DNA from: an uncultured Candidatus Actinomarina sp.
GTDB lineage: Bacteria; Actinomycetota; Acidimicrobiia; Actinomarinales; Actinomarinaceae
Direction of reading: 5' to 3'
Assembly: GCA_902596545.1 (NCBI GenBank)
Contig: CACJUH010000005.1
Coordinates: forward strand, 1 to 64,000
DNA length: 64,000 nt
Shown here: piece by piece, positions 3,345-21,353 of the stretch
Numbering within the stretch: the first letter of the stretch is position 1
Layout: each line of letters starts with the position of its first letter
The notes under the pieces: model-generated
Database searches by the model: none
What the model was told of the DNA's origin: nothing
Seen by the model: only the letters and a program-made list of their open reading frames with translations
Position numbers and translations under genes: made by a program

Positions 3345-4712
3345 TTATCCTTTCTCTTGTAGTCTTTGGTAATCTGTTTTTTTATGATTTAAAAGTGGAA
3401 ACCATTTTTGAGGGTCTAAACTCTCTTTGCTTTGATAGTTGTCTAAAAACAATTTATATCGAAAACCGAAAATCTCCGAAAAGTCTGAATTGATAATTTC
3501 TTTATAATTATTTTTGTTATTAATAAGATTTAAGTACAAAATTCCGAAGGCAAGTATTTTTTCTTGGTATCTTTGAAAATTATCAAGAGCTCCCCCTTGA
3601 TGGTATCTTTTTTGTCTTAATATTCTTGAAAAATTTATATCAGTTTTTGGTAATGTTCTAAAAGTTTTTCCTATTCCATACTTATGCATTTGAACAGGAT
3701 CCAAATCTTTAATGTATTCTTTTTCAAAATGAGTTATTTCCTCTAGGTCGGAGAAAGGTTGTTTCTTAAGAATTTTATTTGATATCAAAACAGTATCTGC
3801 AATGCCTCTCAATCTTTGATTGATGTATAAATCGTGTTCAAAAGATAAGTAACCACTATCGTTTACAGTTCTTCTTGAGTATTCGGCTCTTGACATAATT
3901 TCAGAATCTATTGGATTATTTTTATTAACTTTTACTAATAATTCAAAATCGCACCCTAAATTATTTGCGATTCCTTTAAGATATTTGTTCAAGAAATCAA
4001 TCCATACAATTGTTGAGTTTATCGCTTCTGCAGGATCTTTATTAATGTAACTACCAAGTTCTTCAGACAATACGTTGAGGTCAAAAAAATTCACTAATAA
4101 ATAAAATTTTCTTGGTTGTATTTTTTCTGATCTATAACCCTTTTCGCATTCAATAACTTTTCCTGTAAGTGATACTTCGCTTAATATCTTAAAATTGTCA
4201 ATTTCAAGAGTCTTCAATAATGGGCTATGGAAAAACAAGTTTGCAAAACTTATCTGTTGTTTTTTGGATAATTTATTTTGTAACGTATAAATGACATTTG
4301 TGCTGAATCGTGAAACTATTTCTTTTGTACTGTCGTGAGAAAAGTGACTGCCAATGACTCCAAAATTTTTCACAGAGTAATATCCGCAACTACAATAAGG
4401 GTCAGGTGCTATATGATTGTTGTAAACACAAATTGCAGGAGGTTGCCAAGGTTGACTGGCACTATGTAAGTCACCAGCAATGACGCCGGGAGGTGGAGAT
4501 GAGTTGAAATCATTCCAAGATTGAATTCTTCCATTACCTCGTGCAATAAAGCCGGACTCAACACTGAAATTCCATGTTCTATAGGCTTTAATTTCTTCAG
4601 GAACAAATAATGGCTCTATAAGTGCAGGGTTACATGTAGTACATATAATTCCGTGATGATGTCTTTTCCGCGAGTTTTGATCGCTACAATTACAGAGATT
4701 AACATTATCCAT
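3345..4712 (-). CDS. hypothetical Cys-containing protein
   Basis: ORF track starts at 4754, but ATG at 4712 overlaps the upstream stop (TAATG) and has a GGGAG SD. N-terminal Cys/His cluster; C.CGYYS and GKVIECEKGYRSEKIQP motifs. Confidence 0.7.
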   Translation of the reverse strand: MDNVNLCNCSDQNSRKRHHHGIICTTCNPALIEPLFVPEEIKAYRTWNFSVESGFIARGNGRIQSWNDFNSSPPPGVIAGDLHSASQPWQPPAICVYNNHIAPDPYCSCGYYSVKNFGVIGSHFSHDSTKEIVSRFSTNVIYTLQNKLSKKQQISFANLFFHSPLLKTLEIDNFKILSEVSLTGKVIECEKGYRSEKIQPRKFYLLVNFFDLNVLSEELGSYINKDPAEAINSTIVWIDFLNKYLKGIANNLGCDFELLVKVNKNNPIDSEIMSRAEYSRRTVNDSGYLSFEHDLYINQRLRGIADTVLISNKILKKQPFSDLEEITHFEKEYIKDLDPVQMHKYGIGKTFRTLPKTDINFSRILRQKRYHQGGALDNFQRYQEKILAFGILYLNLINNKNNYKEIINSDFSEIFGFRYKLFLDNYQSKESLDPQKWFPLLNHKKTDYQRLQEKG

Positions 4713-4945
4713 TAATAATTTCTCCCTACATGACCTATATGGAATAATCCACAAAATCTGCAGTGATACTCACTAATTAATGTATCCGTTCGCTTTGTTG
4801 CACGATATGCTTTAGTTTTAGCAATCTCTTTTGTGTGATACTTCATTTTTCTTCTACAACTCCAACACTGATAACAAAGACAGGTAGATCCATTTACCAT
4901 AGACCAACACAGCGCTGGTCTATTGGAAGTACGCGTTTTCATCAC
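4712..4945 (-). CDS. small Cys-rich (Zn-binding) hypothetical protein
   Basis: 77 aa with CLCYQCWSC and YHCRFCGLFHIGH; first gene of the minus operon. Confidence 0.6.
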   Translation of the reverse strand: MMKTRTSNRPALCWSMVNGSTCLCYQCWSCRRKMKYHTKEIAKTKAYRATKRTDTLISEYHCRFCGLFHIGHVGRNY

Positions 4946-5064: not shown

Positions 5065-5892
5065 ATGGGTGTGAGCGAGAGATTTCCAGTTTCTCTAAAT
5101 GCAGTGAACATTGTCTGTTTTAAGATTGACTGGGAGGAAAGAGCGTTAAATGTTCTTCTATTAAAGAGGAGTATTTCTCCACAAAAGAATAAATGGTCAC
5201 TTCCTGGTGGTTTTGTCCAAGGACATGAAACCTTAGAAGAGGCTGCAAGAAGAATCTTTGTTGATGAGACCGGTATCTCCCCTGCGTATTTAAGTCAGTT
5301 TAGGTCCTATAGCAATATCAAAAGAGATAACCGTGTTATCAATCAACGGTCTGGTCAGAAAGCTCGAGTAGTTACTACTGCGTTTACTGCTATTTACACA
5401 AGTGATGAAGAATTGCAGTTAGATAATGAGAGTCAGGATATTAGATGGTTTAAGATTCCAAGGCGGTATTTGAGTAGATATATACCAGAAGATTTCGCTT
5501 TTGATCATTATGAAATTTTAGTAGATACTTCAAACAGATTGAGGGCAACGCTTGAATATAGTGGTTTAGCAACCCGTTTTTTACCTGAGTTTTTTACATT
5601 AGGACAAATTCAAGATATATACGAAATACTGTGGGAAGTTGAATTAGATCCTGCAAACTTCAGAGAGAAGTTAACAAACGTTGATGGATGGATTAGGGAA
5701 GTAAAAAAAGTGCCTGAAAATGTAAAATCAAGAAGAGGTAAGCCACCAACGTGGTACAAGGAAGAAAGTCTTACAAATTTTGAGAGAATGATTTCTAACC
5801 CAGAGGGTGAAAAAATAAGAGAAAAAGAAGTTGAGTATCAAAGAAATATTGAGTCTTCAACTGAAGAGATTAAAATTCTCAAAAAAAAATAG
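5065..5892 (+). CDS. Nudix-domain protein with C-terminal extension, NrtR-like regulator candidate
   Basis: GGFVQGHETLEEAARRIFVDETGIS is Nudix-box-like but degenerate at REUxEE; ~275 aa with wHTH-like C-terminal half. Confidence 0.75.
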   Translation: MGVSERFPVSLNAVNIVCFKIDWEERALNVLLLKRSISPQKNKWSLPGGFVQGHETLEEAARRIFVDETGISPAYLSQFRSYSNIKRDNRVINQRSGQKARVVTTAFTAIYTSDEELQLDNESQDIRWFKIPRRYLSRYIPEDFAFDHYEILVDTSNRLRATLEYSGLATRFLPEFFTLGQIQDIYEILWEVELDPANFREKLTNVDGWIREVKKVPENVKSRRGKPPTWYKEESLTNFERMISNPEGEKIREKEVEYQRNIESSTEEIKILKKK

Positions 5893-5897
5893 TCAAT

Positions 5898-7871
5898 ATG
5901 TACAGCATTTATCTAGCAAATAAAGAGGAAGCTGAATTAAAAAACCTAATTGATGATTTTATTTCTACAACGGCCAAAGAATTTAGATTTTTAATAATTG
6001 AAGGTCCTGCTGGATCAGGTAAAACTGAGACTGTCAGATACCTTAAAAACAATAGCAAAGAAAAGAAAATTGCTTACAGTGCACCTACTCGTCAGGCAGC
6101 TTCAAACTTGAGATTAAGAAAAATAAATTATGCTAGAACTACACAAAAATATATTTCAGACTTCAAATCAGGGAATTTAAACCCATCTGAGTTCAACATT
6201 TTTGTTGTAGATGAAGCTTCGTTATTAACAAAACAACTCATCAATGAATTATTTGATGCTACAAAACTAAACCTGAATTTAAAATTTCTTTTCTTGGGAG
6301 ATTCTGGTCAAAATCTTCCATGGGATTCTAGATCTGGTATACAACAAAAATTTTATGGACTAGAAATTAAGGAAATAATAGAAATATATAAAAATTTTTG
6401 GCTTAAATTTAATAACCGCAGTATTGGAAATGATGAATTTAGGAAAATAAATCTAAGATCTAATTGGAGACTATTAAATAAATCATCCTCAACATCTAAG
6501 GAATATGTAGAGTTATTAACAAATTTACGACAAGGAAGTTTTGAAGGCGATTTTGATGACTTGCTTGAAGTGAATGAGATTAACGAATTTAGAGAAAAAG
6601 ACTATATATCTCATCTAATTAATACCAATCATGAAGGGCTACCAAATTCACTTCATAAAATTATAACTAGAAGTAAATTGGCTGATGACACAAAAATTCA
6701 ACGATGCATTGAAGAAATTCAAGATTCTGTATTTTGGAAAGATAACAAAAAACTTTCATTTGAAGATGTTTTCAGTGAAGATGAGCTTCGTAAAACAGTA
6801 ATCAAAAGGTTTGATTTAAAACACAGTAGGCCACAAATGGGAGAAATTTATAATCAATTCTTTAGTACAAAAAAAAATAATGTTACAAATGTAATTAGCT
6901 TGTTTAGATCAAATAGAAGTGTTCATCAAGCTAACTTAGAGATCAGACAACATTTGAAACATTTTGAAGACATGAGACCAAAATTAAAAAGTCTTATGGA
7001 TAATGAACTTATAAGTTCATCTTTAAAAGACTCCATTCCAGTAAAAGGAGATTTTTTATTTGTTGCGGGTGATGACGAAGGCTTTAATGAAAGCTTAAAT
7101 TTAAAAGATAAAACACAAGAATCTATCTATCCAGGCGATTTGGTTCTAGCAAGTAGTAATTTAAGAAGATCTGAAAAGGCAAAATACATAATGGATGAAC
7201 TTTTTCAAGATGAAAACTATTTTTTTGAAATCGAAATAGAACCACTAATTTATCTTCCTGAGAATTTTCGCCAAAAAGCTGTTCAATATATCTATAAACA
7301 AAAAAGGCTTGTTCTTGTATGGATTGGAGGAATGGTCATAGAAGACAGAAAAGAAGCTTACAAACTTTTCAGAGAGCAGGTAAAGAAAATAGAGGAATAT
7401 ATTTCAATTGAAAAATCAGATTTACAAAAAGAAGATAGTAAAGTTCTCCAGCAGGTATTAAAGGATTTAGATCTAACTCTTGATGATTACAACAATATGA
7501 CCGGAGGATATTCAGACAAAATTAAAACTGGAACTCCAAAGTACCCGTGGGAGTCAAGATCGGAAAGAAAATTTGCACGACCAAAATCAATTAATGGGCA
7601 AACTATTCAAAGCATAAATAAACAGGTTGAAAAAATTAAATCTAAAAACAAAGAAAATAAATATGATGCACTGAAGGAGCTGGAGTTAATATCAAATAAT
7701 TCAATTCTCATTTACTATGCTTATGCATTGACCCATAGAACTGCTCAGGGAGGAGAGTGGAAAAATGTTATTATTGAGTCAGCTGATATATGGAAACAAG
7801 ATCAAAATAGATTTCTTTATACAGCTTTGACAAGATCTTTGAATAAAATCTACTTGTCTTACATTAAATAA
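5898..7871 (+). CDS. SF1 (RecD/UvrD_C_2-like) DNA helicase/ATPase
   Basis: Walker A GPAGSGKT, Walker B FVVDEAS, motif III FLGDSGQ, C-terminal LTHRTAQGGEWKNVII and YTALTRSLNKIYL. Confidence 0.75.
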   Translation: MYSIYLANKEEAELKNLIDDFISTTAKEFRFLIIEGPAGSGKTETVRYLKNNSKEKKIAYSAPTRQAASNLRLRKINYARTTQKYISDFKSGNLNPSEFNIFVVDEASLLTKQLINELFDATKLNLNLKFLFLGDSGQNLPWDSRSGIQQKFYGLEIKEIIEIYKNFWLKFNNRSIGNDEFRKINLRSNWRLLNKSSSTSKEYVELLTNLRQGSFEGDFDDLLEVNEINEFREKDYISHLINTNHEGLPNSLHKIITRSKLADDTKIQRCIEEIQDSVFWKDNKKLSFEDVFSEDELRKTVIKRFDLKHSRPQMGEIYNQFFSTKKNNVTNVISLFRSNRSVHQANLEIRQHLKHFEDMRPKLKSLMDNELISSSLKDSIPVKGDFLFVAGDDEGFNESLNLKDKTQESIYPGDLVLASSNLRRSEKAKYIMDELFQDENYFFEIEIEPLIYLPENFRQKAVQYIYKQKRLVLVWIGGMVIEDRKEAYKLFREQVKKIEEYISIEKSDLQKEDSKVLQQVLKDLDLTLDDYNNMTGGYSDKIKTGTPKYPWESRSERKFARPKSINGQTIQSINKQVEKIKSKNKENKYDALKELELISNNSILIYYAYALTHRTAQGGEWKNVIIESADIWKQDQNRFLYTALTRSLNKIYLSYIK

Positions 7872-9813
7872 CTAAATTTTTAGTTTGAATTAGTCCTAGG
7901 CTTCTGTCTTCTTGGGTGCCTACAACTACTCCTCTATCCAAGAATGAATTCCTATGTTCACAACTAGTTTCTGGAAGTAAGGCACATGAATGACAAGCTC
8001 CTAAATTTTTATTAAAAGGACCTTGTGGATCACCTTGATTGCAAATTGGATCAGTAGAGCACCATCTAGAATTTGTTATTGTATCTATAAACAGTTTGTT
8101 GAAAATTTCAGGATCTACAAGCCTTGCAAGTCCACCAAGAGTACCCTCCTCATCACCAGAAGATGTATATATCAATAAACCACACATGTTATCTTCATTT
8201 TGTTGATTTACATAAAGCCTTTCGGTGATCGATGCTGCATTGTATCCAGCATATGTTGTCATTTCATTTATAAACAAGTGAGAAAAAGTATGAACAAATA
8301 AAAGATCTAAATTTGGTACATAATTTGAAAAAATGTTTTCGTCATCATCATTTTCTAATATTGAAAGCCTATGCTTAACATTATCTTTTTTTGAATGATT
8401 TTTAATTTTTTCATAGTCAAATTCAATAAAAATACCTTCTCCATTATTTTGTACACCTGGAAGCCATCGCCTTCCTTTCTTTTGAGGTGTTTTCCAAAGT
8501 TTTGTATTTGAAATATCATCTAAATCAACCTCACCTTTAGATCTCGTAAAGTCATAAAGCACTTTAGTTTCAATTAGACTATCCACAACGACTAATTTTT
8601 TTAAGTAACTATTAACTTCTTGCGAGTATCCTTTGATATCTAAAATTCTTGTCTTTAAAAGTTGGCTATTGTTTTCTTTTAACAATGTTTTATATTCAGC
8701 TTTTTTATATTCTTCTGGAGTTTTAGGATTTTCTTGTTCAATATCCAAAGTAGAGTTATCACCAGACAATAAAGAATTCAAAACTGCCTCAACTTCTTCA
8801 GGCTTATAAGCTTGGTCTTCATAAAATTCATCAATAATAAATTCTGACTCTTCTTTTATTCTTTGTGGTCTTTCATCTTCATTGATTCGCAATAATTTTC
8901 TCCGAAGTAATTTACTTTCATTTTTTAATTTATGATTTTTCATAAAATCTTCATATATTATTTTTATATTTTCATTTTGAGTATCTAAAGGTATAAATAG
9001 AGAAGTAAAAATAATTGGTTTATAAACACTTGAGCCAGACCTGTAAATCGCTTTTGGAAACTGGTCACACTCTTCTCTTTGGTCAGACCCAAACCATGGA
9101 GTATTTCCAGTACAAAAATAATTTGGAATTTTTGTTCTTAAATTATAAAAACAATCTTCAAGTGTATTTTTTTTATTGCATTTATCATTTCCACAAATGA
9201 CTTGCTGCGTTGCAATTCCATTGCTTACAATTTGTTTAAAAATTAAATTATCTTCAGAACATTGATCTTTGATGTAATCTATTTCATAGCTGTCTGTATC
9301 CTCATTTTTTATTGAATGGGCCCATTCAAACCATGGAAAATCATCAATATGACCGTTGTCGCATATAGTAATAATATTTGCTTGTCTCAACGGTGCTTTT
9401 AATTCGCATTCGTCACAATTAATTCCATTGTCTATTTCCTCTTGGTCGAGGGTGATTGGTTTTCTTTTCAATTTTCCACAAGAAATATTTGAGCAAAACA
9501 TATATCTCGGAAAAAGAAAATACGGAATTATTATTTCTGCATTTACAAGAGTTGATCCTCTTTCGGGTTGCTTCCTGTATTGTGGCGGATAATTAAAATA
9601 ATCAACTTCAAGAAAACTTCTCAACCTTGGTTCATCGAAACTCCACTCATCGTCTTGGTACTTATCTTCTCCTGATTTACGATTTTGTTTAGTAATTTTA
9701 TGTAGCCATAAGTCTAAACTTCCGCACATCATTGAAGTACCTCCAACCATGATTCTTAAAGAACCAACTCCAAACACACCAGTTAGCTGTGATCTTCGTA
9801 TGTCATCAACCAT
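7864..9813 (-). CDS. drmB: DUF1998-containing protein, DISARM DrmB-like
   Basis: N-terminal RRSQLTGVFGVGSL, Cys-rich central region, C-terminal GGLARLVDPE...CHSCALLPETSCEHRNSFLDRGVVVGT typical of DUF1998; next to a DrmA-like helicase. Confidence 0.8.
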   Translation of the reverse strand: MVDDIRRSQLTGVFGVGSLRIMVGGTSMMCGSLDLWLHKITKQNRKSGEDKYQDDEWSFDEPRLRSFLEVDYFNYPPQYRKQPERGSTLVNAEIIIPYFLFPRYMFCSNISCGKLKRKPITLDQEEIDNGINCDECELKAPLRQANIITICDNGHIDDFPWFEWAHSIKNEDTDSYEIDYIKDQCSEDNLIFKQIVSNGIATQQVICGNDKCNKKNTLEDCFYNLRTKIPNYFCTGNTPWFGSDQREECDQFPKAIYRSGSSVYKPIIFTSLFIPLDTQNENIKIIYEDFMKNHKLKNESKLLRRKLLRINEDERPQRIKEESEFIIDEFYEDQAYKPEEVEAVLNSLLSGDNSTLDIEQENPKTPEEYKKAEYKTLLKENNSQLLKTRILDIKGYSQEVNSYLKKLVVVDSLIETKVLYDFTRSKGEVDLDDISNTKLWKTPQKKGRRWLPGVQNNGEGIFIEFDYEKIKNHSKKDNVKHRLSILENDDDENIFSNYVPNLDLLFVHTFSHLFINEMTTYAGYNAASITERLYVNQQNEDNMCGLLIYTSSGDEEGTLGGLARLVDPEIFNKLFIDTITNSRWCSTDPICNQGDPQGPFNKNLGACHSCALLPETSCEHRNSFLDRGVVVGTQEDRSLGLIQTKNLVI

Positions 9814-9815
9814 TG

Positions 9816-12800
9816 TTATTCTCCAATAACTCTATCATTCACTATTTTTGGCCTGGATGTTTGCTCAACAGACCGCATTGATGTAGGAACTTTGAAGGAT
9901 TCCTCAAAATGAGTTGCTGTAAATGTACCTTGTTCAGTAGTCAATGGAGGTTGGATTAAGTCATGATTGTTTACACTCCATCTTCGTGCATTGGTTTTTT
10001 TCCATCGATTTTCTAATTTATCAAATTGGCTAGATAAAAACTCTATCTCATGTTGTTTTGCTCCAATTAATTTAGCTTTATTTACGAATAATTCTTTCAG
10101 ATTGTTCGCAAAAGTATTGGGGAACTGTTCAAGGTTTGGATCAATACTAAATACACTTTTAGGCATATACATTCTCAAATACATGAAAAATACTCCATCT
10201 AAAAATCTTTCTACTGCAGGTAATGAAAATGGTGTTACAGAAGTGGGCTCAACAGACGAATATAGTCTTTGATGAAATGACTTAAATTTTTCGTAATGTG
10301 AAATATCTCTTGGTCGACCTGCACCAAATATTGTAAGTACTAATCCAGCCGCTTTTGATCTCCCAACTCTTCCTGCAACCTGTATATATTGAGAAGTATT
10401 TTTTGGTTGGCCCAATATAGTTAACAAAGAAAGTCTCTGAACATCTACTCCAACTTCAACAATACTCGTTGCAAGAATAGCCCTAAGAGGTCTTTGGGAA
10501 CTAGTAGTTGATACTTCCATTTTTTTCATAGAATCAACAACTTCAGTACTTGATATTCGAGAGGTTAACTCAACAATTTCACTATCAAATGGTTTAAAAT
10601 TTCCTTTTTGACCAAATAAATTAAATCTTGAAGATAATAGCTTAAGCCTTCTTTGTACATCTTCATGGTAAATTGACCAAGTTGTTCCAAGCTCTCTAAT
10701 GGAATGGAAGTAGTTTAAATTTGTCCACCAAGGATCTCTTTCTTCTTCAGTCAGAAAATTTGGACTTCTTAAAAAATTTGTTAAAACTCTTGCTTGTGCT
10801 TCTTGTGATGAAAATGTTGGAAATGAAATACCAGTATACAATTTACCATCTCTGTTTTTGTCTTCTTTTGCAAAAAAAGAATCGGATATATCGATACCTG
10901 CAGGTGGAAAAAGTGTCATATTTGTTCTACCAAACAAGCCTAAAATTTGAGCGCTTGAGTTCTTAATAGTTGCTGTAGAGCAAATAATCTTTGGTTTTAC
11001 CATTTCTCCTGATGCAGTTTTATATGTACAAAGTTCATCAATTAATGTCTCAAAAAATCCAAAAGCAGAGCCAAGAGCATTTGAAATTAAATGTAGCTCA
11101 TCTTGAATGATTAAAGTGGGTGGATTAGTTTGTCTTTCTCCTTCATCATTTAACCCAAAAATACTTCTAGCATTCTCATTCCAAATTAAGTTTGCAAATT
11201 TATCTACAGTAGAAATAATGAGTGAAGGTCTGTTGTTGTATATATCCTCGTCTACACAATAAATTGGAAGTGCTTTATTAAATTCACATAATTTATCTGG
11301 GCAGTGCAATTTTATTCCTTTTTCACCTTTATGAACTCCTAAAATTCTCAAAGGCCTATTACTTTTGTCGAGAAAAAGCATATTTTGTTTAGCTTGTTGA
11401 TAGCTAATTGGGCCTATTTGTGCTCTACAAAATGGACACGCTTGAAGAAGAAATTTATATTTCGAAGGATCAGCATTGTGATACAACATATCATCATAAG
11501 ATTCTTTAGCTTTGTTGATAGTGTTTGGAGTTACATCTTTTCCAACCCAAATGCCTATACTAAATTCTTTAATGCCAAATTTCTCACTATTTTTGGCCCG
11601 GATATTTTCCATACAAACAATTAACTTAGATGCTCTTTCAAATTGCTGAGCCGTTAAAAGTCTTAATGTGTAACGCATTAAAGCTTGTACTCCATCATTA
11701 CTGGAGTCTTTAAGTCTGTTGTAGAAAAGTGTAAATGCGGTAACCCCTAGGTATGCTTCGGTCTTACCACCTCCGGTGGGAAACCATAGCAAGTCTACAT
11801 TGTCTTTAAAATTTGAACTTTTATTAACTATAGATTCAATGACCAGCAATATAAATCCTATTTGAAAAGCTCTCCAATTTCCTTTTTCAAAACTATTGTC
11901 TTTTAAGGAATTTACCCAATCTTCTTTATTTTCAAAACTAACCTTTGGCTTTACAGGGTCAATAATAACTTCACGTATTTGATTTGGAATGTTCTGCTGA
12001 AGATACAGGGCTTCATTCATATATTTAAAGGCTTCTAATATATCCTTATCTTGCTTTTCTATGATGAATTGATATCCAGTTTGCATTCTTTTCAATGCTT
12101 CTTGACAAAGAAGAATATTGTTATTAAAAATTTCTCTATATTTACTACCTATTGTATTTTCTCTGGACTTTAAGCTATCTATCCAAGATTCATAATCTTC
12201 TAAGAGCAACTTAATAATGTCTAAATTTTCTCCCTTTGAAAATTTTTTCATAGAAAGCTCATACTTTTTTCCACTTTTTAATTCAACTATGTCAGGTGTT
12301 AATGGCTGTATTTCGTGTTCGGGAATGAATTCGGTAGAAACACTTTTAACTGTAGAGCCATTACCTTCAGTGATCCAATCAACAGATGTGCCATGACCGA
12401 TAGCAAAAGTAGACATTTTATTATATATAAATTCAAATGAATTTTGTTCATTTGGTTCTAGTACTCCATCTAATAAATCTGAACCTTCTGGGTAAGGTAG
12501 TATTTTTGATCCTTGATCCTCGTCAAATACACTAACTTCTAATTTTGATTGAAATAATGAGTTTAAATTCGAACTATTACCTTCTGACTTATTTAGTAAA
12601 GTAACAGTTGCAATAAACGAATTTTCGTATCTTCTGATAAATGTTTTTACAATGAATAAATTATTCAAAAATTTAATTTGTTTGTCTTGTAAAAATCCTT
12701 CATCATCGATTGACTCAAAATCTGAAGAAGAATAGGTAAATTTTTCTAATAAATTATTTCTTTTGTAAAAAGTTTTAAAAATTGGATAGCCTTCTTTTGA

Positions 12801-13409
12801 CTTCTTTCCTTTTTCGTCATTAAATTGGATTAAGTCACCATTTTTATTTTTTTTATTCCACTTTCTAAATGTCGGAAAACTTGTGTAGATCCCGCCTGAA
12901 ACAGTAATCTCAAAAGACGTTATTTCACTTAAAGTAAACCTAAAACTAATTCCCATAGCAGATGGTTTTCTAGCATGAGTCAATTTAACAATATCTGGTT
13001 GATTTTCATCGTCTTTATAAAGTGATCTATTTTTGTGTTTTTTTTGATCTTTTATATATTGGTTATTTTCAGTTATGTCATCTTCAGTTGTAAAATCTTC
13101 TAAATTAGAAATATCTATTTCTTTAACATCTTCTTCTGTAAGCTCATCATCTTCGGTAACTTCAGTTCCTTGTGGATAAAGTATTCCAATGCAGTATGTT
13201 CTTGATGGGAGAGTTTGAATTATTTCCTCTTGAGTTGTTAAGTCTAAAAAACAATTTCTACAATCTTCTTCTGATTCAAAAAGTACTTCTTCAACATCTG
13301 TGTCTAAATCATGAAACTCAATAAATTTACTTAAGTTAGCTGGACCCAGCATGTCTGCTCTTAAAAAGCTTAAAATTTCCTTACGATTTTCGCTATGTAT
13401 GTTACTCAC
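9816..13409 (-). CDS. drmA: DISARM-type helicase DrmA
   Basis: 1197 aa; Walker A LLWFPTGGGKTEAYLG, DELHLI (DExH), SATI, helicase C region ATSIVEVGVDVQRL / QVAGRVGRS. Confidence 0.82.
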   Translation of the reverse strand: MSNIHSENRKEILSFLRADMLGPANLSKFIEFHDLDTDVEEVLFESEEDCRNCFLDLTTQEEIIQTLPSRTYCIGILYPQGTEVTEDDELTEEDVKEIDISNLEDFTTEDDITENNQYIKDQKKHKNRSLYKDDENQPDIVKLTHARKPSAMGISFRFTLSEITSFEITVSGGIYTSFPTFRKWNKKNKNGDLIQFNDEKGKKSKEGYPIFKTFYKRNNLLEKFTYSSSDFESIDDEGFLQDKQIKFLNNLFIVKTFIRRYENSFIATVTLLNKSEGNSSNLNSLFQSKLEVSVFDEDQGSKILPYPEGSDLLDGVLEPNEQNSFEFIYNKMSTFAIGHGTSVDWITEGNGSTVKSVSTEFIPEHEIQPLTPDIVELKSGKKYELSMKKFSKGENLDIIKLLLEDYESWIDSLKSRENTIGSKYREIFNNNILLCQEALKRMQTGYQFIIEKQDKDILEAFKYMNEALYLQQNIPNQIREVIIDPVKPKVSFENKEDWVNSLKDNSFEKGNWRAFQIGFILLVIESIVNKSSNFKDNVDLLWFPTGGGKTEAYLGVTAFTLFYNRLKDSSNDGVQALMRYTLRLLTAQQFERASKLIVCMENIRAKNSEKFGIKEFSIGIWVGKDVTPNTINKAKESYDDMLYHNADPSKYKFLLQACPFCRAQIGPISYQQAKQNMLFLDKSNRPLRILGVHKGEKGIKLHCPDKLCEFNKALPIYCVDEDIYNNRPSLIISTVDKFANLIWNENARSIFGLNDEGERQTNPPTLIIQDELHLISNALGSAFGFFETLIDELCTYKTASGEMVKPKIICSTATIKNSSAQILGLFGRTNMTLFPPAGIDISDSFFAKEDKNRDGKLYTGISFPTFSSQEAQARVLTNFLRSPNFLTEEERDPWWTNLNYFHSIRELGTTWSIYHEDVQRRLKLLSSRFNLFGQKGNFKPFDSEIVELTSRISSTEVVDSMKKMEVSTTSSQRPLRAILATSIVEVGVDVQRLSLLTILGQPKNTSQYIQVAGRVGRSKAAGLVLTIFGAGRPRDISHYEKFKSFHQRLYSSVEPTSVTPFSLPAVERFLDGVFFMYLRMYMPKSVFSIDPNLEQFPNTFANNLKELFVNKAKLIGAKQHEIEFLSSQFDKLENRWKKTNARRWSVNNHDLIQPPLTTEQGTFTATHFEESFKVPTSMRSVEQTSRPKIVNDRVIGE

Positions 13410-15217
13410 TATATCAATCCGGCATCTAGTAATTTTTTATCAATATGCATTACAAAGGTTTCAAGAGATCTTGTAAGTCCTGTGTATATCAAAGCAATTA
13501 ATTCTTCATTAACACTTGAGAAATGTGTGTGAGAGCTTATGTCCGTTAAAATTATTACATTAAACTCTAAGCCTTTATGTTTATAAATTGTAGAAAAATA
13601 AGGTCCTGATTCGTCTTGAATATTTTTTTCATAATTATATTCGTAAAGTTTATACTTTAATTTTTTTTCATTAGACCTTCTTGATACTGAATCTTTTGAA
13701 AGAGGGGATAAAATTAAAATTTCACTTTTATCATATCCAAGTTCAATTAACTCATCTATAGATTCTTGAAGATTTCTTAGCTGTTCGTCTTCATCTGAGT
13801 AACTAATATATAAAGGTTCAACAATACCATTAGACCTAATAAATGGTCTTTGATAAACAGGGTCTAGTTTTACATAAGTTTCAATTTCTTCTGCAACATC
13901 GGGTGTGTTTCTACAATTCCTTCTTAGGGTTAATTCAAAATGATTGTATCCAATATCTTTTAATATATCTTTACTTGATAGATTATGTTGAAATAGATTC
14001 TGCTTTTCGAAATCCCCAAAAAAATACCATCTACCCGATGAAAACCCCCCGGTTAATAGCCTGTCAAAAAAATACATGTTTTTTTCTATTGCAAGATCTT
14101 GAAATTCATCTATCACCACTACATCGTATTTTGTATTTGAAACTAGCAAACTTTCCATTGCAGATTCATAAAGGTTTTCATAAAAAGACTCGTCTAAATC
14201 TTTAATGGGTAGAATATTTTCATTTGAAGATAGATTATGCATAAACCCATAAAAAGTTTGAATTTCAAATTTGCTGTTTTGAAACTTATTATTTAAATGC
14301 AACATCAAACCACGATTAAAACATAGATAAAGTACTTTTAAGTCGGAATTTTGTGAAAATATATTACATATTTCAGTTGCTAATAATGTCTTTCCCGACC
14401 CAGCAGGTCCTGTAACCAAAAAATTATTGTTATTAGAAGCCCACTCAAGAACATTTTCTTGTTCAGGTGTAAGTGTTTCTATTTCTTTATTAATTCTTTC
14501 AATTCGCTGTTCTGTAGATTCTTGTACGCTATCAATATTTGGACGTAATATTTTTATAATTTTTTCAATATCACTAGATGGAAATGTAATATTGTTATGA
14601 ATCTTTGATCTTTTGTTTTGATATCTTTTCTTGTCTTGTTCTGAGACAGCTGTGCCTATTCTCTCCATTGTCAAATTATCACTATTTTCAATTTCAATTT
14701 GTGATAGTAATGCACTCGAAATTAATTCTGGTAGTGGTTTTTTATTCAACTTATCTGCATCAATAATTTGCCAGTCAAACCACTCAGGAGAATCATAATT
14801 AAATTTTGAGAAAGGAAAAATGCAAATATGCGTCCATGGTATTTTTATAAAACCTGGAGGTTTTTTGTCACTTTTTTTGATTAAATCTATCATTGACCAC
14901 ATGTTTTCCTTAGATTGAGTCAATGGACTCTTTTTTTCTGGATCTGTATTGTTGTTAAAATACCAATGTCCATTGGTGTACTTGATATCTCTATGGCCTT
15001 TAACTTCTATAGTAACGACGCCCAAAGATGGTATTAGTACTAAAAAATCTACCTCTCCTTCTTTTTGCACAACATGATCAACTATGTGGTAGCTATGTAA
15101 AATCCACCAATCGTCTATAGTTTTATCATTTAAAAATCGATCAAAAATCTCTTCTTCAGCGTCAGATGGGCTATTTGTAGATTCAGGAAAATATCTAGTA
15201 GGTAAAATTCTAGGCAT
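13409..15217 (-). CDS. NERD nuclease-domain / SF1 helicase fusion
   Basis: N-terminal EGEVDFLVLIPSLGVVTIEVKG (NERD, D...ExK); GPAGSGKTLLA, VVIDEFQDL, C-terminal IYTGLTRSLETFVMHI. Confidence 0.8.
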   Translation of the reverse strand: MPRILPTRYFPESTNSPSDAEEEIFDRFLNDKTIDDWWILHSYHIVDHVVQKEGEVDFLVLIPSLGVVTIEVKGHRDIKYTNGHWYFNNNTDPEKKSPLTQSKENMWSMIDLIKKSDKKPPGFIKIPWTHICIFPFSKFNYDSPEWFDWQIIDADKLNKKPLPELISSALLSQIEIENSDNLTMERIGTAVSEQDKKRYQNKRSKIHNNITFPSSDIEKIIKILRPNIDSVQESTEQRIERINKEIETLTPEQENVLEWASNNNNFLVTGPAGSGKTLLATEICNIFSQNSDLKVLYLCFNRGLMLHLNNKFQNSKFEIQTFYGFMHNLSSNENILPIKDLDESFYENLYESAMESLLVSNTKYDVVVIDEFQDLAIEKNMYFFDRLLTGGFSSGRWYFFGDFEKQNLFQHNLSSKDILKDIGYNHFELTLRRNCRNTPDVAEEIETYVKLDPVYQRPFIRSNGIVEPLYISYSDEDEQLRNLQESIDELIELGYDKSEILILSPLSKDSVSRRSNEKKLKYKLYEYNYEKNIQDESGPYFSTIYKHKGLEFNVIILTDISSHTHFSSVNEELIALIYTGLTRSLETFVMHIDKKLLDAGLI

Positions 15218-16769
15218 TGGTGATCTCCTTTATTCCCCAGCCACCCCAGCTCTTTGGTACTTTAACAAGACTGTTTAATTTTGCTTCAATTCTAAAGGCT
15301 GAAAGTGTTCCCATATTTTCTCCAAGCAAATCAAAATCAATCTGAACTTTTCCTGAAAAGTTTTTTACATCAAGATTGTTAATCTTTTCTCTAAGTAGTC
15401 TATCAAGTTTTTGACCAGCCTCAATATGTGCAGAATGTATCTTGTCCATTGAAGAGACAATCTCTGGGATTTGTTGATCAAAATCTAAATACTTAAGAAG
15501 AATATTAAAGTGAACACTGCTTTTTGGTTTTATAGCATTTGTAGTCCATCTTTTTATAGTGTCTTTATTTACATAACTTATCCCTAGTGACTTTAAATCA
15601 GAAATTACTTTTTCTTCTGAAATTTCTTGGGTTTTTTCTTTTAAAGAATTTCTCCAGTTCTTTTGATGTTGCCTAGCAACAGTCATAGATTCCCCTAGTA
15701 TTGAGTTTGCAATCTCCTCAAGAACATCTCTATCTGCTCCTTCCATTCTTTTTAAAATATACATACCTTCACCAACCTGGCTTGGATGAACTTTTTCAAT
15801 ATCTAATGTTCCATCTTCATCAAAATCATCAACTACTGTTGCTTTTTCATCGTGTAAAACATAAGCAGCATAATTTTTATTACTTTCCTCTTTACTTAAG
15901 ACATAACAGTGAGCTTCTTCTATATTTTCTACATTATCAATATTTTCAATAGAAACTAATTTATTAATACTTTCTAAATATTTTTGCTCATTAACCTGAG
16001 GTACCAAACTTTCATCTTTAAATATCGACCTTGAAGTGTCCTTCATATTCAAAAACATTGACTCGTTATAGTTAATTGCCTTTGTTTCGGGCAAAGAGCC
16101 CACGAGGGAAATTTCAGGTTCTACAGCAATTGATGTCCACTTATAATGAGACCAATATATTTTTTTTGCTCGTGGTGAAGTTAGTAAAAACTCAACAGAC
16201 TTATCAGCAAAACCTCTTCTTTTTATCAATTTTGTAGCTTGTCCAAAAATTACAATTGCATCGTAAAATACATCTCCCCTGATTTGTGAAGGGCTTTTTA
16301 CAACCCATTTTCTATTTTGCCTGGTATAGTTTTCTAGCCAAGACAACGATGAAGGGTCTGTCTGAATAAAGCAAATACTGTGTGTTGGTTCAAGATGAGA
16401 TTTCATTTCGTCATACAGGGGGGAATCGTTGCTGTTTGATATAGTCTTGATGTTGTGCGTAATCTTATCAAGAAATACTGAGTCAAATATATTACTGTTT
16501 TTGATTTTTTCAAATGTGTTTGAAATATTTTCAATTTTTTCATCGATATATGAATCTTCAGTATTGAATGGAGCTACGGAGTTGAGCCAACTCCATCTTA
16601 ATAATATTAAATCTTCAATGCATTTCTCCCATATAGAAAAATTTGAAATAACTTCTTGATGGCTCTTTAGATTATTTATCTGAACAGATAGCTCTTCTAG
16701 GGTAGGGTATTCAATCCTTCTATTAACGAACTCTGGGGTGTGGCTTAACCAAATTTTTTCAATACTCAT
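15210..16769 (-). CDS. hypothetical protein in DISARM-like operon (candidate C-terminal half of split DrmE)
   Basis: 519-aa ORF overlapping the downstream gene by 8 nt; no catalytic motif recognised; HTH-like segment SDLKSLGISYVNKDTIKRWTTNAIKP. Confidence 0.65.
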   Translation of the reverse strand: MSIEKIWLSHTPEFVNRRIEYPTLEELSVQINNLKSHQEVISNFSIWEKCIEDLILLRWSWLNSVAPFNTEDSYIDEKIENISNTFEKIKNSNIFDSVFLDKITHNIKTISNSNDSPLYDEMKSHLEPTHSICFIQTDPSSLSWLENYTRQNRKWVVKSPSQIRGDVFYDAIVIFGQATKLIKRRGFADKSVEFLLTSPRAKKIYWSHYKWTSIAVEPEISLVGSLPETKAINYNESMFLNMKDTSRSIFKDESLVPQVNEQKYLESINKLVSIENIDNVENIEEAHCYVLSKEESNKNYAAYVLHDEKATVVDDFDEDGTLDIEKVHPSQVGEGMYILKRMEGADRDVLEEIANSILGESMTVARQHQKNWRNSLKEKTQEISEEKVISDLKSLGISYVNKDTIKRWTTNAIKPKSSVHFNILLKYLDFDQQIPEIVSSMDKIHSAHIEAGQKLDRLLREKINNLDVKNFSGKVQIDFDLLGENMGTLSAFRIEAKLNSLVKVPKSWGGWGIKEITNA

Positions 16770-16771
16770 AT

Positions 16772-17740
16772 TTACACTTGGTACGCCATAATTTCACAAC
16801 CTCTAGGGATATAATCTGGATAAAGTTCTAATTCTTCTTCATTCTCTCTAAATAAATATTCTTTATTGTATAAATCAACTAATGTCGGAGCGTTTCTAGA
16901 TGTTTTTGGAATCAAAATAATTTGTGTTTTACCATTTTCCCATTCAAAAATACTTTCAAGATTTGTGTTTGGATTTTGAACAAATATGGATAATTCTGAT
17001 TCTTCGATCAACTTGTCTTCATTGCTGCTTAATATATTTGTTAAAAACATTTCTTTTTTTGATCTATTTAATAAAAGTAAGTCAGCAAATGAATATTTAA
17101 TTTCTTGGTTGATCTGAAACTGTGTATTTGATTGTCCTATTAACTCTTTTTTATTACCTGCAATTTGTATCATATTTTTTGGAAGACCAAAAAGACCAAG
17201 TACGTCCACATTCTTATAGTAAGCAGGAAAGTTTGACATATCTACGTTAGAAACCTGTTCAATTGGTTTATCAGGAATAACAAAAGGTTTGTTTGTTATT
17301 GAGACCAAATATCTATCATTATCTAAGGGAAATGCAGGATTGGCATACTTAATATCATTTGAGCTAATTTTTAACCAAAATACTGATCGTTCTATATCTA
17401 TACTATCTAAAGCTCCTACAACTGGTTTTAAAGTTTCTAATTCTTTATCTACAACAGATACTTCAACGCCTTTTTCTGATGACAATAATTTTTCCTTTGC
17501 TTCGGTTGCAGATATAAAACCAGTAGTGAGAGAAGATTGTAAAAAACCGCTTATTGCACCCGTAGCAATAATGTGTGGGGTAAAAGACGCTGTTGGAATA
17601 AGTAATACATATTTTAAATTCTCATATTTTGCAGTTGCAGCACTCTCGCCTAGTTGAAATAAAAAATCAAACCAGTCTCCAAATAAATTCCCCAATTTAT
17701 CATCAACAAATTTTCTATTCACAAAAACCTTCCTGAACAA
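16772..17740 (-). CDS. hypothetical protein in DISARM-like operon (candidate N-terminal half of split DrmE)
   Basis: 322-aa ORF, 2 nt from the next gene in the operon; no recognised motif. Confidence 0.65.
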   Translation of the reverse strand: MFRKVFVNRKFVDDKLGNLFGDWFDFLFQLGESAATAKYENLKYVLLIPTASFTPHIIATGAISGFLQSSLTTGFISATEAKEKLLSSEKGVEVSVVDKELETLKPVVGALDSIDIERSVFWLKISSNDIKYANPAFPLDNDRYLVSITNKPFVIPDKPIEQVSNVDMSNFPAYYKNVDVLGLFGLPKNMIQIAGNKKELIGQSNTQFQINQEIKYSFADLLLLNRSKKEMFLTNILSSNEDKLIEESELSIFVQNPNTNLESIFEWENGKTQIILIPKTSRNAPTLVDLYNKEYLFRENEEELELYPDYIPRGCEIMAYQV

Positions 17741-17892
17741 AGTTTAAAAATAATTTTATTCATTTTCAAAAAATCTTAAGGCTCGATATCCTTGTTCACT
17801 GCTTTCATCAAAAATAAATAAAAATAGCTCTTTTTGATCAAAATTTTCATTATTTAAATCTTTTTTTTCAGGTTGAAAAATATTATTTATTG

Positions 17893-18198
17893 CTACTCCT
17901 CCTCAGCCTCTCTGTCTGCTTCATCCATCATTCTCTCTAATATAAGAAGGCCCAGTAATTTATTAGATTCAACTCTTAGCCTTGAGTAAAATGAAGCAAA
18001 TTTTGAAATTATTTTTATAAAGTCTTCTAGCTCCTCTTCTTGCATATCGCTTAAATTTTTATTTATAAAAGATGAAATAAAATCATCTACATAAACTTCT
18101 TCCTCATTATCAATAAGACTTAACAAATAAGATTTCTCAATAAATTTCTCAGGAATGGTGTAAATATCAAAATTAAACACACTCACCATCCTCTTCAT
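17893..18198 (-). CDS. small acidic hypothetical protein
   Basis: 101-aa ORF overlapping the upstream ORF by 26 nt within the operon. Confidence 0.55.
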   Translation of the reverse strand: MKRMVSVFNFDIYTIPEKFIEKSYLLSLIDNEEEVYVDDFISSFINKNLSDMQEEELEDFIKIISKFASFYSRLRVESNKLLGLLILERMMDEADREAEEE

Positions 18199-18571
18199 CT
18201 CTTACGGTGAGTTCTGTAATACCTAGCGAGTTTTTCATAAGAAAAATATGTTTTCCTAGTGATACGCTTTCAAAAGCCTTTGCATAGGTTTTCAATTCCT
18301 CATTCTTAATCACATGTGACGCTTTGTGGCCTGTTTGGTTTATATACAAACTTATACAAGTCATTAAAAGAGAGGCTAATTCATCTTTTGTCTCTTTATG
18401 AAAAAAGGAAACTCCAGACTCTTCAAAAAATACTTGTTCGTCATTAAATTGTGGGGTAGAAACTAAATCACTGTAAATCTTTTCTAAGTGTTCGATGAAA
18501 CTCTCAGATGACTTTGATGTCTTAAGAGATGTTCTTTTTATAGTTTTATTAAATTCTTTATATTTTTTCAT
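18173..18571 (-). CDS. hypothetical protein
   Basis: 132-aa ORF in operon order. Confidence 0.55.
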   Translation of the reverse strand: MKKYKEFNKTIKRTSLKTSKSSESFIEHLEKIYSDLVSTPQFNDEQVFFEESGVSFFHKETKDELASLLMTCISLYINQTGHKASHVIKNEELKTYAKAFESVSLGKHIFLMKNSLGITELTVRDEEDGECV

Positions 18572-18575
18572 TAAC

Positions 18576-18656
18576 CTAAAACCCTGGTGATAACTTCCAT
18601 TTTCTAATATGTCTTTTTATGGTTTCTCTCCATATATCTTTTAATCTTTTCAACAT
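18576..18656 (-). CDS. 26-aa basic putative microprotein
   Basis: MLKRLKDIWRETIKRHIRKWKLSPGF; sits between two operon ORFs with 4-nt gaps each side; no strong SD. Confidence 0.35.
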   Translation of the reverse strand: MLKRLKDIWRETIKRHIRKWKLSPGF

Positions 18657-18660
18657 CTAT

Positions 18661-18897
18661 TCAAAACCCTGTACTATTTTTTTGATTACTTTCATTGCTT
18701 TCTGAATCTAAATAAGAAAGAAGATGTCTGCAAAATACTCTCACTTCTGAAAGGTATGGGATTTGCTTAATATTGGATGCTTTTAGAAATGCTTCGACCT
18801 CAGCTGAGTTTATTTGCAAGATCTCAGCAATTTGATCTATGTTTAGAACAATTGGTAAATTGTCAAAGTGATTAATATCTTTAGTCTCTGAGGACAT
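18661..18897 (-). CDS. small HTH/excisionase-like DNA-binding protein
   Basis: 78 aa; LNIDQIAEILQINSAEVEAFLKASNIKQIPY resembles a helix-turn-helix; first gene of the operon. Confidence 0.5.
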   Translation of the reverse strand: MSSETKDINHFDNLPIVLNIDQIAEILQINSAEVEAFLKASNIKQIPYLSEVRVFCRHLLSYLDSESNESNQKNSTGF

Positions 18898-18913
18898 AAA
18901 AAAACCTCCGCGT

Positions 18914-19037
18914 TATTCGTTGAACGTTATTTATATTAGAAGTCTTCCAATTAAATGCAAATCAAATATTTAATTTTTTACGAATAATAATTATTGAGTT
19001 ATATTTATAAGTGAATGCCTTCGGGTATTCGTTGAAC
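18914..19037. repeat. 12-bp direct repeat tattcgttgaac flanking the divergent promoter region
   Basis: Perfect copies at 18914-18925 and 19026-19037; the first lies in the pseudo-palindrome CGTTgAACG. Confidence 0.6.
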
Positions 19038-19074
19038 AATATAAAGTAGCGGTCTATGTACCGCTACTTTTTTT
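19013..19074 (+). ncRNA. candidate small structured RNA (UUCG hairpin plus intrinsic terminator)
   Basis: gaatgcc-ttcg-ggtattc hairpin (19013-19030), then 11-bp stem aaagtagcggt-ctatgt-accgctacttt with a T-run (19043-19074). Confidence 0.45.
19043..19074 (+). terminator. intrinsic terminator
   Basis: 11-bp perfect stem, 6-nt loop, run of T's. Confidence 0.75.
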
Positions 19075-19147
19075 ATCTAAATGTCGTATCTCAAAATTAA
19101 AATAAGACCTGGATTTTTATTAAATATTTAATTATGATTACAAAGAA

Positions 19148-20392
19148 ATGAAAAAGCTAACAGTTGTCGATTTATTTGCAGGGTGTGGAGGGCTCTCTTT
19201 AGGATTGGAACAGGCAGGATTTCAATCTGTATATGTTAATGAACTAAACAATGATGCGATGGAGTCGTACTTAATTAATCGAGATCTTGAAAACCCTTAC
19301 TTAAGAGAAAGATTTCACTCTAACGATGTTAAGTCAATGATTCTAGATAAAAAATATATTCCAAACCTATCAAAAGATCTTAAAAACACTTATAACTTAG
19401 ACGTTAAGAGTGGGGAATTAGATTTAATAGTAGGGGGGCCCCCTTGCCAAGGATATTCAGGGATTGGTCACAGAAGATCATATTCTGTAAACAAAGAGCA
19501 GATTCCATCAAATTTTCTTTATCAAGACATGGCTTACTTAATCAGTAAGTTGCAACCAAAAATATTTTTATTTGAAAATGTAAGAGGGCTTCTCTCAGGT
19601 CGTTGGAAAAGCGGTGGAGAAAAGGGAGAAATTTGGAGCGATGTGTTAGAAACCTTTAATTCACTTAAGGATTATCAATCATCGTGGAAACTAGTAAAAG
19701 CAAAAGATTATGGTGTACCACAAAACAGACCAAGAGTACTTTTAGTTGGAGTAAGAAATGATATTAGATTAAAAAACATAAAATCTAAAACAGCAGATGG
19801 TTTTTTACCAGATCCTTCAGGAACACCACCAGATCCAGTAGATATTTTTTCAGACCTTATAGACCCAAACTATAAGAAAAAATATTTTAATGAAAAATAT
19901 TTAAAAGATCCAAGGAGTGATTATCAAAAAAGCTTAAGAACAAAAAATAGAGTCTTATTAAAAAAAGGAAGCGAATTGACTGAGCAAGAGTACTCAAGCC
20001 ATAGTGAAAAAATTGAAAAAAAATTTCAGTTTATGATTGATAACAACGGCAATATCCCAGAAGAAATGAGAACTAAAAAATTTTCTCAAAGATTGATTCC
20101 TAAAAGATGGGATGAAAGTGGTCCAAACATTACAGCAACATCCTTACCTGATGATTATGTACATTACGCTCAACCAAGAATTTTAACTGTAAGAGAATGG
20201 GCAAGACTTCAAATGTTTCCAGATTGGTATAAGTTTGCTGGAAAGAGAACCACTGGTGGATCAAGAAGAGCTGGAAATCCAAGAGATAACAATTTCGATA
20301 GAGAGCTGCCAAAATATACTCAGATAGGAAATGCGGTACCAGTTGGTCTTGCAAAAAAAATAGGTTCTCATTTTGTAAACATCTTAAAATAA
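19148..20392 (+). CDS. DNA (cytosine-5-)-methyltransferase (DrmMII-like or type II RM methylase)
   Basis: Motif I DLFAGCGGLSLG, GGPPCQGYSG (PCQ), FENVRGL (ENV), QNRPRVLLVG (QxRxR), GNAVPVGLAKKIG motif X. Confidence 0.9.
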   Translation: MKKLTVVDLFAGCGGLSLGLEQAGFQSVYVNELNNDAMESYLINRDLENPYLRERFHSNDVKSMILDKKYIPNLSKDLKNTYNLDVKSGELDLIVGGPPCQGYSGIGHRRSYSVNKEQIPSNFLYQDMAYLISKLQPKIFLFENVRGLLSGRWKSGGEKGEIWSDVLETFNSLKDYQSSWKLVKAKDYGVPQNRPRVLLVGVRNDIRLKNIKSKTADGFLPDPSGTPPDPVDIFSDLIDPNYKKKYFNEKYLKDPRSDYQKSLRTKNRVLLKKGSELTEQEYSSHSEKIEKKFQFMIDNNGNIPEEMRTKKFSQRLIPKRWDESGPNITATSLPDDYVHYAQPRILTVREWARLQMFPDWYKFAGKRTTGGSRRAGNPRDNNFDRELPKYTQIGNAVPVGLAKKIGSHFVNILK

Positions 20393-20432
20393 TTCGTTTT
20401 ACATCAACTAATAAATAGTTATCCTAAAAATT

Positions 20433-21353
20433 GTGACAGACATTAAAGAGTTGATTGAAAAGCTAAATCAAGAATATTGGTTAGTTTATGTTGAGGAAAT
20501 ATCTAAAAAATTAAAACCAAAAATTCAAAAAAATGGTGTTCTGAAATTAATTAGAGAGAAAGTGGATGAAGATTATAAGGAAAAGATAAATTCTTTACAT
20601 TCTGAGTTTATATCAGACAAATCAATTATTAATTTAGACGATCAGGTTAAAAATTTAACTGACGAAATATTAAAAATCAATAATATTAAGAACAATTCAA
20701 TCTATTACGAATTTTTCAAACATTTAAAACACATTGAAAATCGCAACAATGAATTTGATGAATTAATTCTTATAGCAAATTTAATCGATGATACAAATAT
20801 CAATATTTCTACAAAAATGAAGCTGAATAATATTGTAAGTAAAATAATAAATCAATCAATTAATCAATCAAATAAATCAAATGCAGGTGCTGCAGGTGAA
20901 ACAATTACAGAATCTATTCTTAAAAAAATAGGTTTCTCTGAGGGTACTCAATACAAAAAACAGTTTAAATCCAGCGAAGGTAGTGACACAGATTTTGTCT
21001 ACCCATACGTTGATGATTTTGATGATATTAATGTTCAAATATTTATGGCAGTTCAATTTTCTACTAATGATAGAGCTAGATTAACAAGCAGCGAGTTAAA
21101 AACTGGTGGAGAGAAGATAGCTTTAACATATAACGATTTTCCCTCTTCGACAAAAAAATTAAAAGATATTGGTGATCAAATTGTTGGAGATTATAAGAAA
21201 GAGCGAGTAAGGATCGTTGCGTATTCTGAAGGGATTAAAAAAGAAATTATAAGGTGTGAAAAGTATTCAAAAATTGAGCGTGCTGAATATTTTCAAAATT
21301 ATGCATCAAGTTTTGAAGAATATTTTGGACAATTGAAAAATCGATTTTCCTAA
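20433..21353 (+). CDS. probable PD-(D/E)XK-type restriction endonuclease
   Basis: GTG start 41 nt after the methylase; coiled N-terminal half, then GAAGETITESILKKIGF...GSDTDFVYPYV...VQFSTNDR. Confidence 0.5.
   Translation: MTDIKELIEKLNQEYWLVYVEEISKKLKPKIQKNGVLKLIREKVDEDYKEKINSLHSEFISDKSIINLDDQVKNLTDEILKINNIKNNSIYYEFFKHLKHIENRNNEFDELILIANLIDDTNINISTKMKLNNIVSKIINQSINQSNKSNAGAAGETITESILKKIGFSEGTQYKKQFKSSEGSDTDFVYPYVDDFDDINVQIFMAVQFSTNDRARLTSSELKTGGEKIALTYNDFPSSTKKLKDIGDQIVGDYKKERVRIVAYSEGIKKEIIRCEKYSKIERAEYFQNYASSFEEYFGQLKNRFS

Follow-up and report, generated by a model that had tools for sequence, protein, structure and literature searches.

At positions 7864-17740 of the window (the whole 64,000-nucleotide stretch of DNA analysed here, about 33% G+C, from a host genome of 1.1 Mb), the ORF listing gives a tight operon on the minus strand with the transcription order E1-E2-NERD-SF1 helicase-DrmA-DrmB, in which successive ORFs are separated by gaps or overlaps of no more than 8 bases. 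This agrees with the original prediction, which had described a closely packed minus-strand operon with DrmA next to DrmB/DUF1998, and the profile matches given below bear out both assignments. The features are as follows.

16772-17740, minus strand: E1, probable N-terminal part of DrmE, 322 aa; predicted degenerate RecA-like domain with a small inserted beta-barrel, without a P-loop
15210-16769, minus strand: E2, C-terminal part of DrmE, 519 aa; DrmE_C domain (PF24957) at about 15381-15800
13409-15217, minus strand: NERD-SF1 UvrD-like helicase, 602 aa; NERD domain at about 14816-15160, helicase at about 13448-14512
9816-13409, minus strand: DrmA helicase, 1197 aa; NF038325/PADLOC DrmA
7864-9813, minus strand: DrmB (DUF1998/MZB), 649 aa; NF038324, PF09369
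17893-18571, minus strand: two small overlapping ORFs upstream of E1, 132 and 101 aa; operon membership uncertain
19148-20392, plus strand: C5-cytosine DNA methyltransferase, divergent to the operon, 414 aa; PF00145
20433-21353, plus strand: putative type II restriction endonuclease, EcoRII-C-like, 306 aa; PF09019, sub-threshold

The two small ORFs between the methylase and E1 have no homologue among any of the loci compared, and are possibly regulatory or recently gained. DrmA scores 831 bits against NF038325, which is under the curated cut-off of 950; it matches the PADLOC DrmA profile at 1e-194, contains the FPTGGGKTEAYLG motif, and aligns with the solved Serratia DrmA (7s9v) with an E of 9e-118. 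DrmB scores 351 bits against NF038324, above the cut-off of 240, and also matches PF09369; the window proteins thus include both the DrmA and the DrmB (DUF1998) of DISARM type II.

The first two proteins of the operon had been taken as large unknowns in the original prediction; we read them instead as a DrmE divided over two genes. The identity of E2 with the C-terminal part of the DrmE of class 2 DISARM is well supported: E2 scores 27.8 bits against the Pfam family DrmE_C (PF24957, cut-off 27), which several of its relatives also match above cut-off, and hhalign aligns it with the C-terminal half of canonical DrmE (E 7e-9) and with fused DrmE proteins (L085, L166, L194 and others; E 1.7e-29). 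The identity of E1 with the N-terminal part is moderately supported. E1 retrieves nothing from Pfam, NCBIfam or PADLOC, and belongs to a conserved family (66 sequences aligned) whose size and position fit the N-terminal half of DrmE; it has weak collinear similarity to the N-terminal halves of fused DrmE proteins (E 0.0016 and 0.0018), a signal that appears only with several fused sequences and is not significant against canonical DrmE taken singly, so that this weak resemblance is insufficient by itself. In two relatives (L037 and L045), a lengthy additional N-terminal stretch is either joined to E1 or stands ahead of it (615 and 437+146 aa).

AlphaFold models of E1 and E2 have a pLDDT of 85 each. 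In Foldseek comparisons the fold of the E2 model matches SF2 helicases of the RIG-I/MDA5/Hef type (best E 2e-4, with low TM-scores of about 0.2-0.27), and the E1 model gives weak local matches to SF2 RecA1 and Tudor domains or barrels, none with E<1e-3; neither sequence contains a P-loop. The models suggest that E1-E2 may be a P-loop-less, catalytically dead SF2-type pseudo-helicase. A PDB profile search with E2 returned chance matches only. Because E1 and E2 together read as a split DrmE, the locus is placed in a class-2-related DISARM lineage rather than in an unrelated DrmAB system; the description of the locus as DISARM-like and DrmC-less therefore stands, and the alternative offered with it, a separate DrmAB-based system, is disfavored.

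The third protein of the operon joins a NERD domain (PF08378, 44.9 bits) to an SF1 helicase (UvrD_C_2, AAA_19). Its NERD residues E21, E55, D57 and K73 are invariant in 44 diverse homologues, with E71 kept in at least 90%, and Walker A, Walker B and R583 are invariant across the same set; given this invariance, the nuclease and the helicase activity both appear to be under selection. No HKD/PLD ORF occurs in the window, so the DrmC of DISARM type II is missing from it, and a DrmC alignment search of the 94.65%-complete genome, run without a positive control, likewise found nothing, in line with the earlier statement that there is no PLD gene here. Moreover, a PLD gene adjoining DrmB is absent from every locus that carries this NERD-helicase; the sole joint occurrence is L017, in which the PLD ORF lies several genes downstream. 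DrmC directly follows DrmB in the class 2 comparators and in many class 1-type loci, and it is this slot that a NERD-helicase occupies in three loci of a different DrmAB lineage (L162, L196 and L199), which have an SF1 helicase before DrmA. As far as gene content can tell, this mutual exclusion and the DrmC-slot pattern are consistent with one nuclease replacing another, and the mutual exclusion together with the conserved catalytic residues makes it plausible that the NERD-helicase stands in DrmC's place, as originally proposed. L196 and L199 are contigs of a viral collection. A sub-branch of 18 of 72 loci, mainly from Bacillaceae and Cyanobacteria, has E1-E2-DrmAB with neither a NERD-helicase nor an adjacent PLD gene, indicating that not every branch needs a dedicated nuclease.

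Conservation of the arrangement is evident from a survey in which a DrmA alignment (window, L008 and L006) was searched against one genome per species, 84,980 species in all, and the best 80 loci were kept; the locus frequencies are biased, since these loci were chosen by their similarity to the window DrmA. E2 lies before DrmA in 68 of the 68 loci with at least 4.6 kb of upstream DNA, and 65 of these have a separate E1, the exceptions being L085 (where the two are fused into one protein of 829 aa), L071 (where an unrecognised ORF of 295 aa takes the place of E1) and L070 (no E1 match, with an odd ORF call). Of the 72 loci with sufficient DNA, 53 have the NERD-helicase directly ahead of DrmA; L057, whose DrmA is interrupted, brings the count to about 54. 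Loci with the NERD-helicase come from 16 phyla, ranging from Actinomycetota to Verrucomicrobiota, and the core genes of the relatives mostly overlap by a few bases; the NERD-helicase and the formerly unknown ORFs are thus repeatedly co-located with drmAB, contrary to the possibility, raised at the outset, that they never are. Divergence from locus to locus follows that of DrmA, the Mantel r of pairwise distances being 0.96 for DrmB, 0.90 for the NERD-helicase and 0.89 for E1/E2.

In a FastTree phylogeny of DrmA, which has several long branches, the 80 rows of this type form one clade with a local support of 99, which excludes the class 1-type loci (L150-L161), the canonical class 2 loci (L098, L099) and those with a fused DrmE and a PLD gene (L174, L175, L177). 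The presence of the NERD-helicase on this tree takes 6 parsimony changes (L057 scored as absent), the absences clustering in Bacillaceae and Cyanobacteria. A fused DrmE combined with the NERD-helicase and DrmAB is found in L085, L166 and L194. We conclude that the operon represents a real, coherent and widespread type belonging to the DISARM family. Among 397 unselected Actinomycetota genomes, about 28 DrmA-type neighborhoods were read, most of them class 1-like or of other DrmAB types; E-type loci with a NERD-helicase are the window, L008 (genome G003), L166 and L172; in L171, E1-E2 occurs but the NERD-helicase does not. E-type loci with the NERD-helicase are thus a minority of the DISARM-like loci in Actinomycetota. 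Genome G003 holds, besides its NERD-type operon, a class 1-type DrmAB-DrmC locus (L153). The operon also occurs in single-cell assemblies of a Pelagibacteraceae member (L071) and of another alphaproteobacterium (L024), the latter with a phage-type integrase and a PD-(D/E)XK protein nearby. L194 is a viral-collection contig encoding a fused 853-aa DrmE, the NERD-helicase, DrmA and DrmB, which suggests that the operon is carried on a mobile or prophage element; a plasmid search with fused DrmE found none.

Of the systems described so far, DISARM class 2 (DrmE-DrmA-DrmB-DrmC-DrmMII; comparators L098 and L099) is close in sharing DrmA, DrmB, a DrmE-family protein before DrmA and a nearby C5 methylase. 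Unlike it, the window has DrmE in two genes, a NERD-SF1 helicase between DrmE and DrmA, no PLD-type DrmC, a DrmA from a different clade, and a divergent, type-II-like methylase accompanied by a putative restriction enzyme. The PADLOC rule for DISARM type II requires DrmA, DrmB, DrmC, DrmE and DrmMII (PMC9252829); with no DrmC, and with DrmE recognizable only by remote homology, E1-E2-NERD-DrmAB falls outside that formal definition, and the PADLOC profiles and rules that we checked, by demanding DrmC and the DrmE profile, miss the arrangement. On the Rhodococcus opacus plasmid pROB02, RefSeq labels the same genes as hypothetical, NERD domain-containing, helicase-related and DUF1998 proteins. 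DISARM class 1 (DrmD, DrmMI, DrmA, DrmB, DrmC) has the DrmAB core in common with the window, which lacks DrmC and has E1-E2 and the NERD-helicase instead; DrmD and DrmMI have no match among the scanned window proteins.

Nuclease-linked helicases are known from other systems as well. TALON (PMC12458937) pairs a YprA-family helicase with a NERD-type nuclease, as the window does, but its YprA is ARMADA-like and has TPR-CSD and TBP partners, neither of which is matched among the scanned window proteins, whereas the window has separate DrmA and DrmB proteins that match DISARM profiles best. The best PADLOC match of the NERD-helicase (6e-37) is the DRT-associated RTasNERD-Hel, which has the same NERD and SF1 architecture; the window protein differs in sitting inside a DrmAB operon, and no reverse transcriptase is matched among the scanned neighbors. 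ArmD of ARMADA type II, a GajB-like helicase with an RNase domain, is likewise a nuclease-fused SF1 helicase beside a YprA helicase, but the window has a NERD rather than a RelE-like domain and no BrxHII or PglX genes. DISARM typically carries a PLD nuclease, NERD being mentioned only for TALON, and many uncharacterised DISARM-like classes exist (Bell et al. 2025, PMC12458937); within the open-licence literature, which leaves out most subscription papers and supplements, we found no description of a class 3 or NERD-containing DISARM.

Taken together, the locus is probably a DISARM-family anti-phage operon of a separate and widespread lineage (provisionally 'NERD-DISARM') with the NERD-helicase as its own nuclease. 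The SF2 motor DrmAB of Serratia engages DNA at exposed ssDNA or 5'-overhang ends (PMC9142583); by analogy, the window DrmAB would load onto such sites in incoming or replicating phage DNA. E1-E2, apparently without ATPase motifs, could serve as a non-catalytic nucleic-acid-binding or regulatory subunit, and the NERD-SF1 helicase would unwind and cut the engaged DNA, a task otherwise ascribed to DrmC, the PLD nuclease. The neighboring methylase would mark self DNA in a protective role, and with the putative restriction enzyme may form an exchangeable restriction-modification module that is found in association with the core. In a bolder form, which we hold only tentatively, this would be a third DISARM class in at least 16 phyla, in which the NERD-SF1 protein is an obligate effector replacing PLD, a two-subunit, RIG-I/MDA5-like DrmE pseudo-helicase senses nucleic acid, and a swappable type II restriction-modification pair provides self-recognition. 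Conserved through a large lineage, a nuclease-helicase in the core operon is a clean and testable candidate for the missing nuclease of DISARM; the split DrmE, in addition, lets its two halves be handled separately.

The divergent methylase named in the original prediction is confirmed (PF00145, 205 bits), and it matches a generic type II methylase profile (7e-74) better than the DrmMII profile (6e-49); the nuclease-like ORF of 306 aa is present too, its match to EcoRII-C (PF09019) being weak at 24.4 bits against a cut-off of 25, and a search of solved structures with it gave nothing useful. A rather unlikely alternative for these two genes is that they form a type II restriction-modification system unrelated to the DrmAB-type system, the two merely sharing a defense hotspot; it bears on no other gene and is compatible with the preferred reading of the five core genes. 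In keeping with it, methylase distances track those of DrmA poorly overall (r 0.45), and a congener (L006/G140) that carries this operon at the corresponding lysA site has a D12 N6-adenine methylase (Dam) and PDDEXK_11 instead. Against it, 39 of 68 loci have a C5 methylase no more than 2.6 kb from the operon, and methylases about 56-58% identical to that of the window stand beside the operons of L024 and L034, single-cell assemblies of uncultured Alphaproteobacteria, in another phylum, that are also the nearest relatives of the window by DrmA, a match suggesting that core and methylase moved horizontally. The other flanking proteins, 137 in number, include 10 Vsr, 5 NaeI, 3 AspBHI-type, 2 NgoMIV and 3 D12 methylases; MvaI/BcnI is found near the operon in L034, SinI and an AspBHI-type enzyme in L071, and on Rhodococcus opacus pROB02 the operon adjoins NaeI, Vsr and a C5 methylase. 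Enzymes of the EcoRII and MvaI/BcnI types are specific for CCNGG-type sites, from which one may guess a CCNGG-type target for the window methylase. We also considered the 306-aa ORF as a Shield-type ShdA, an RmuC-domain protein found in DISARM-like operons (PMC10270631); its RmuC match is sub-threshold (21.1 against 26).

Turning to the core genes, it is unlikely that the locus is an ordinary class 2 DISARM from which drmC has been lost or relocated, with the NERD-helicase as an accessory repair or processing protein rather than an effector. DrmC is reported to be dispensable and often missing, with the way in which DISARM degrades DNA unresolved (Bravo et al. 2022, PMC9142583), and the NERD-less Bacillaceae and Cyanobacteria branches point the same way; yet DrmC was not found in the genome in the search made without a positive control, the NERD-helicase diverges in step with DrmA and keeps an invariant nuclease site, and the separate DrmA clade and the split DrmE set the lineage apart, the latter as a nearly fixed difference. 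It is improbable that E1-E2-NERD-DrmAB is a defense system of its own that shares only DrmAB with DISARM, the DrmE_C resemblance being incidental: the DrmE models of PADLOC and NCBIfam do miss E2, and across the 397 Actinomycetota genomes neither the canonical DrmE profile (PDLC02636) nor a profile built from two canonical DrmE sequences found any match, but the PF24957 scores of E2 and its relatives, the hhalign match to canonical DrmE and the intermediate fused-DrmE forms with NERD all speak against this reading. A decayed, functionless remnant is very improbable, for despite the rarity of E2 in the genus (of the congeners searched, a single one has it besides this genome) the five ORFs are full length and the DrmA helicase, NERD and SF1 motifs are intact.

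The operon lies in a variable setting. Across the genus, most of the gene content beyond lysA is conserved, but the stretch beside lysA is hypervariable among 12 congeners, and the island on this side (window position 21350, the lysA end; L178-L189) holds differing gene sets in congeners, among them other candidate defense genes such as Z1 with GHKL and TIR-DUF4420 (L185) and AAA_15; the stretch looks like a defense hotspot. The 469-aa protein encoded at 3345-4754 of the window matches neither Pfam nor NCBIfam and has no relative among the loci compared. At 5065-7871, an NrtR-type Nudix regulator is followed by a 657-aa SF1 (RecD2-like) helicase, a pair that is convergent with drmB, overlaps its end by a few bases, and may be a separate defense cassette; L185 and L188 have relatives of the Nudix protein at this lysA hotspot too.
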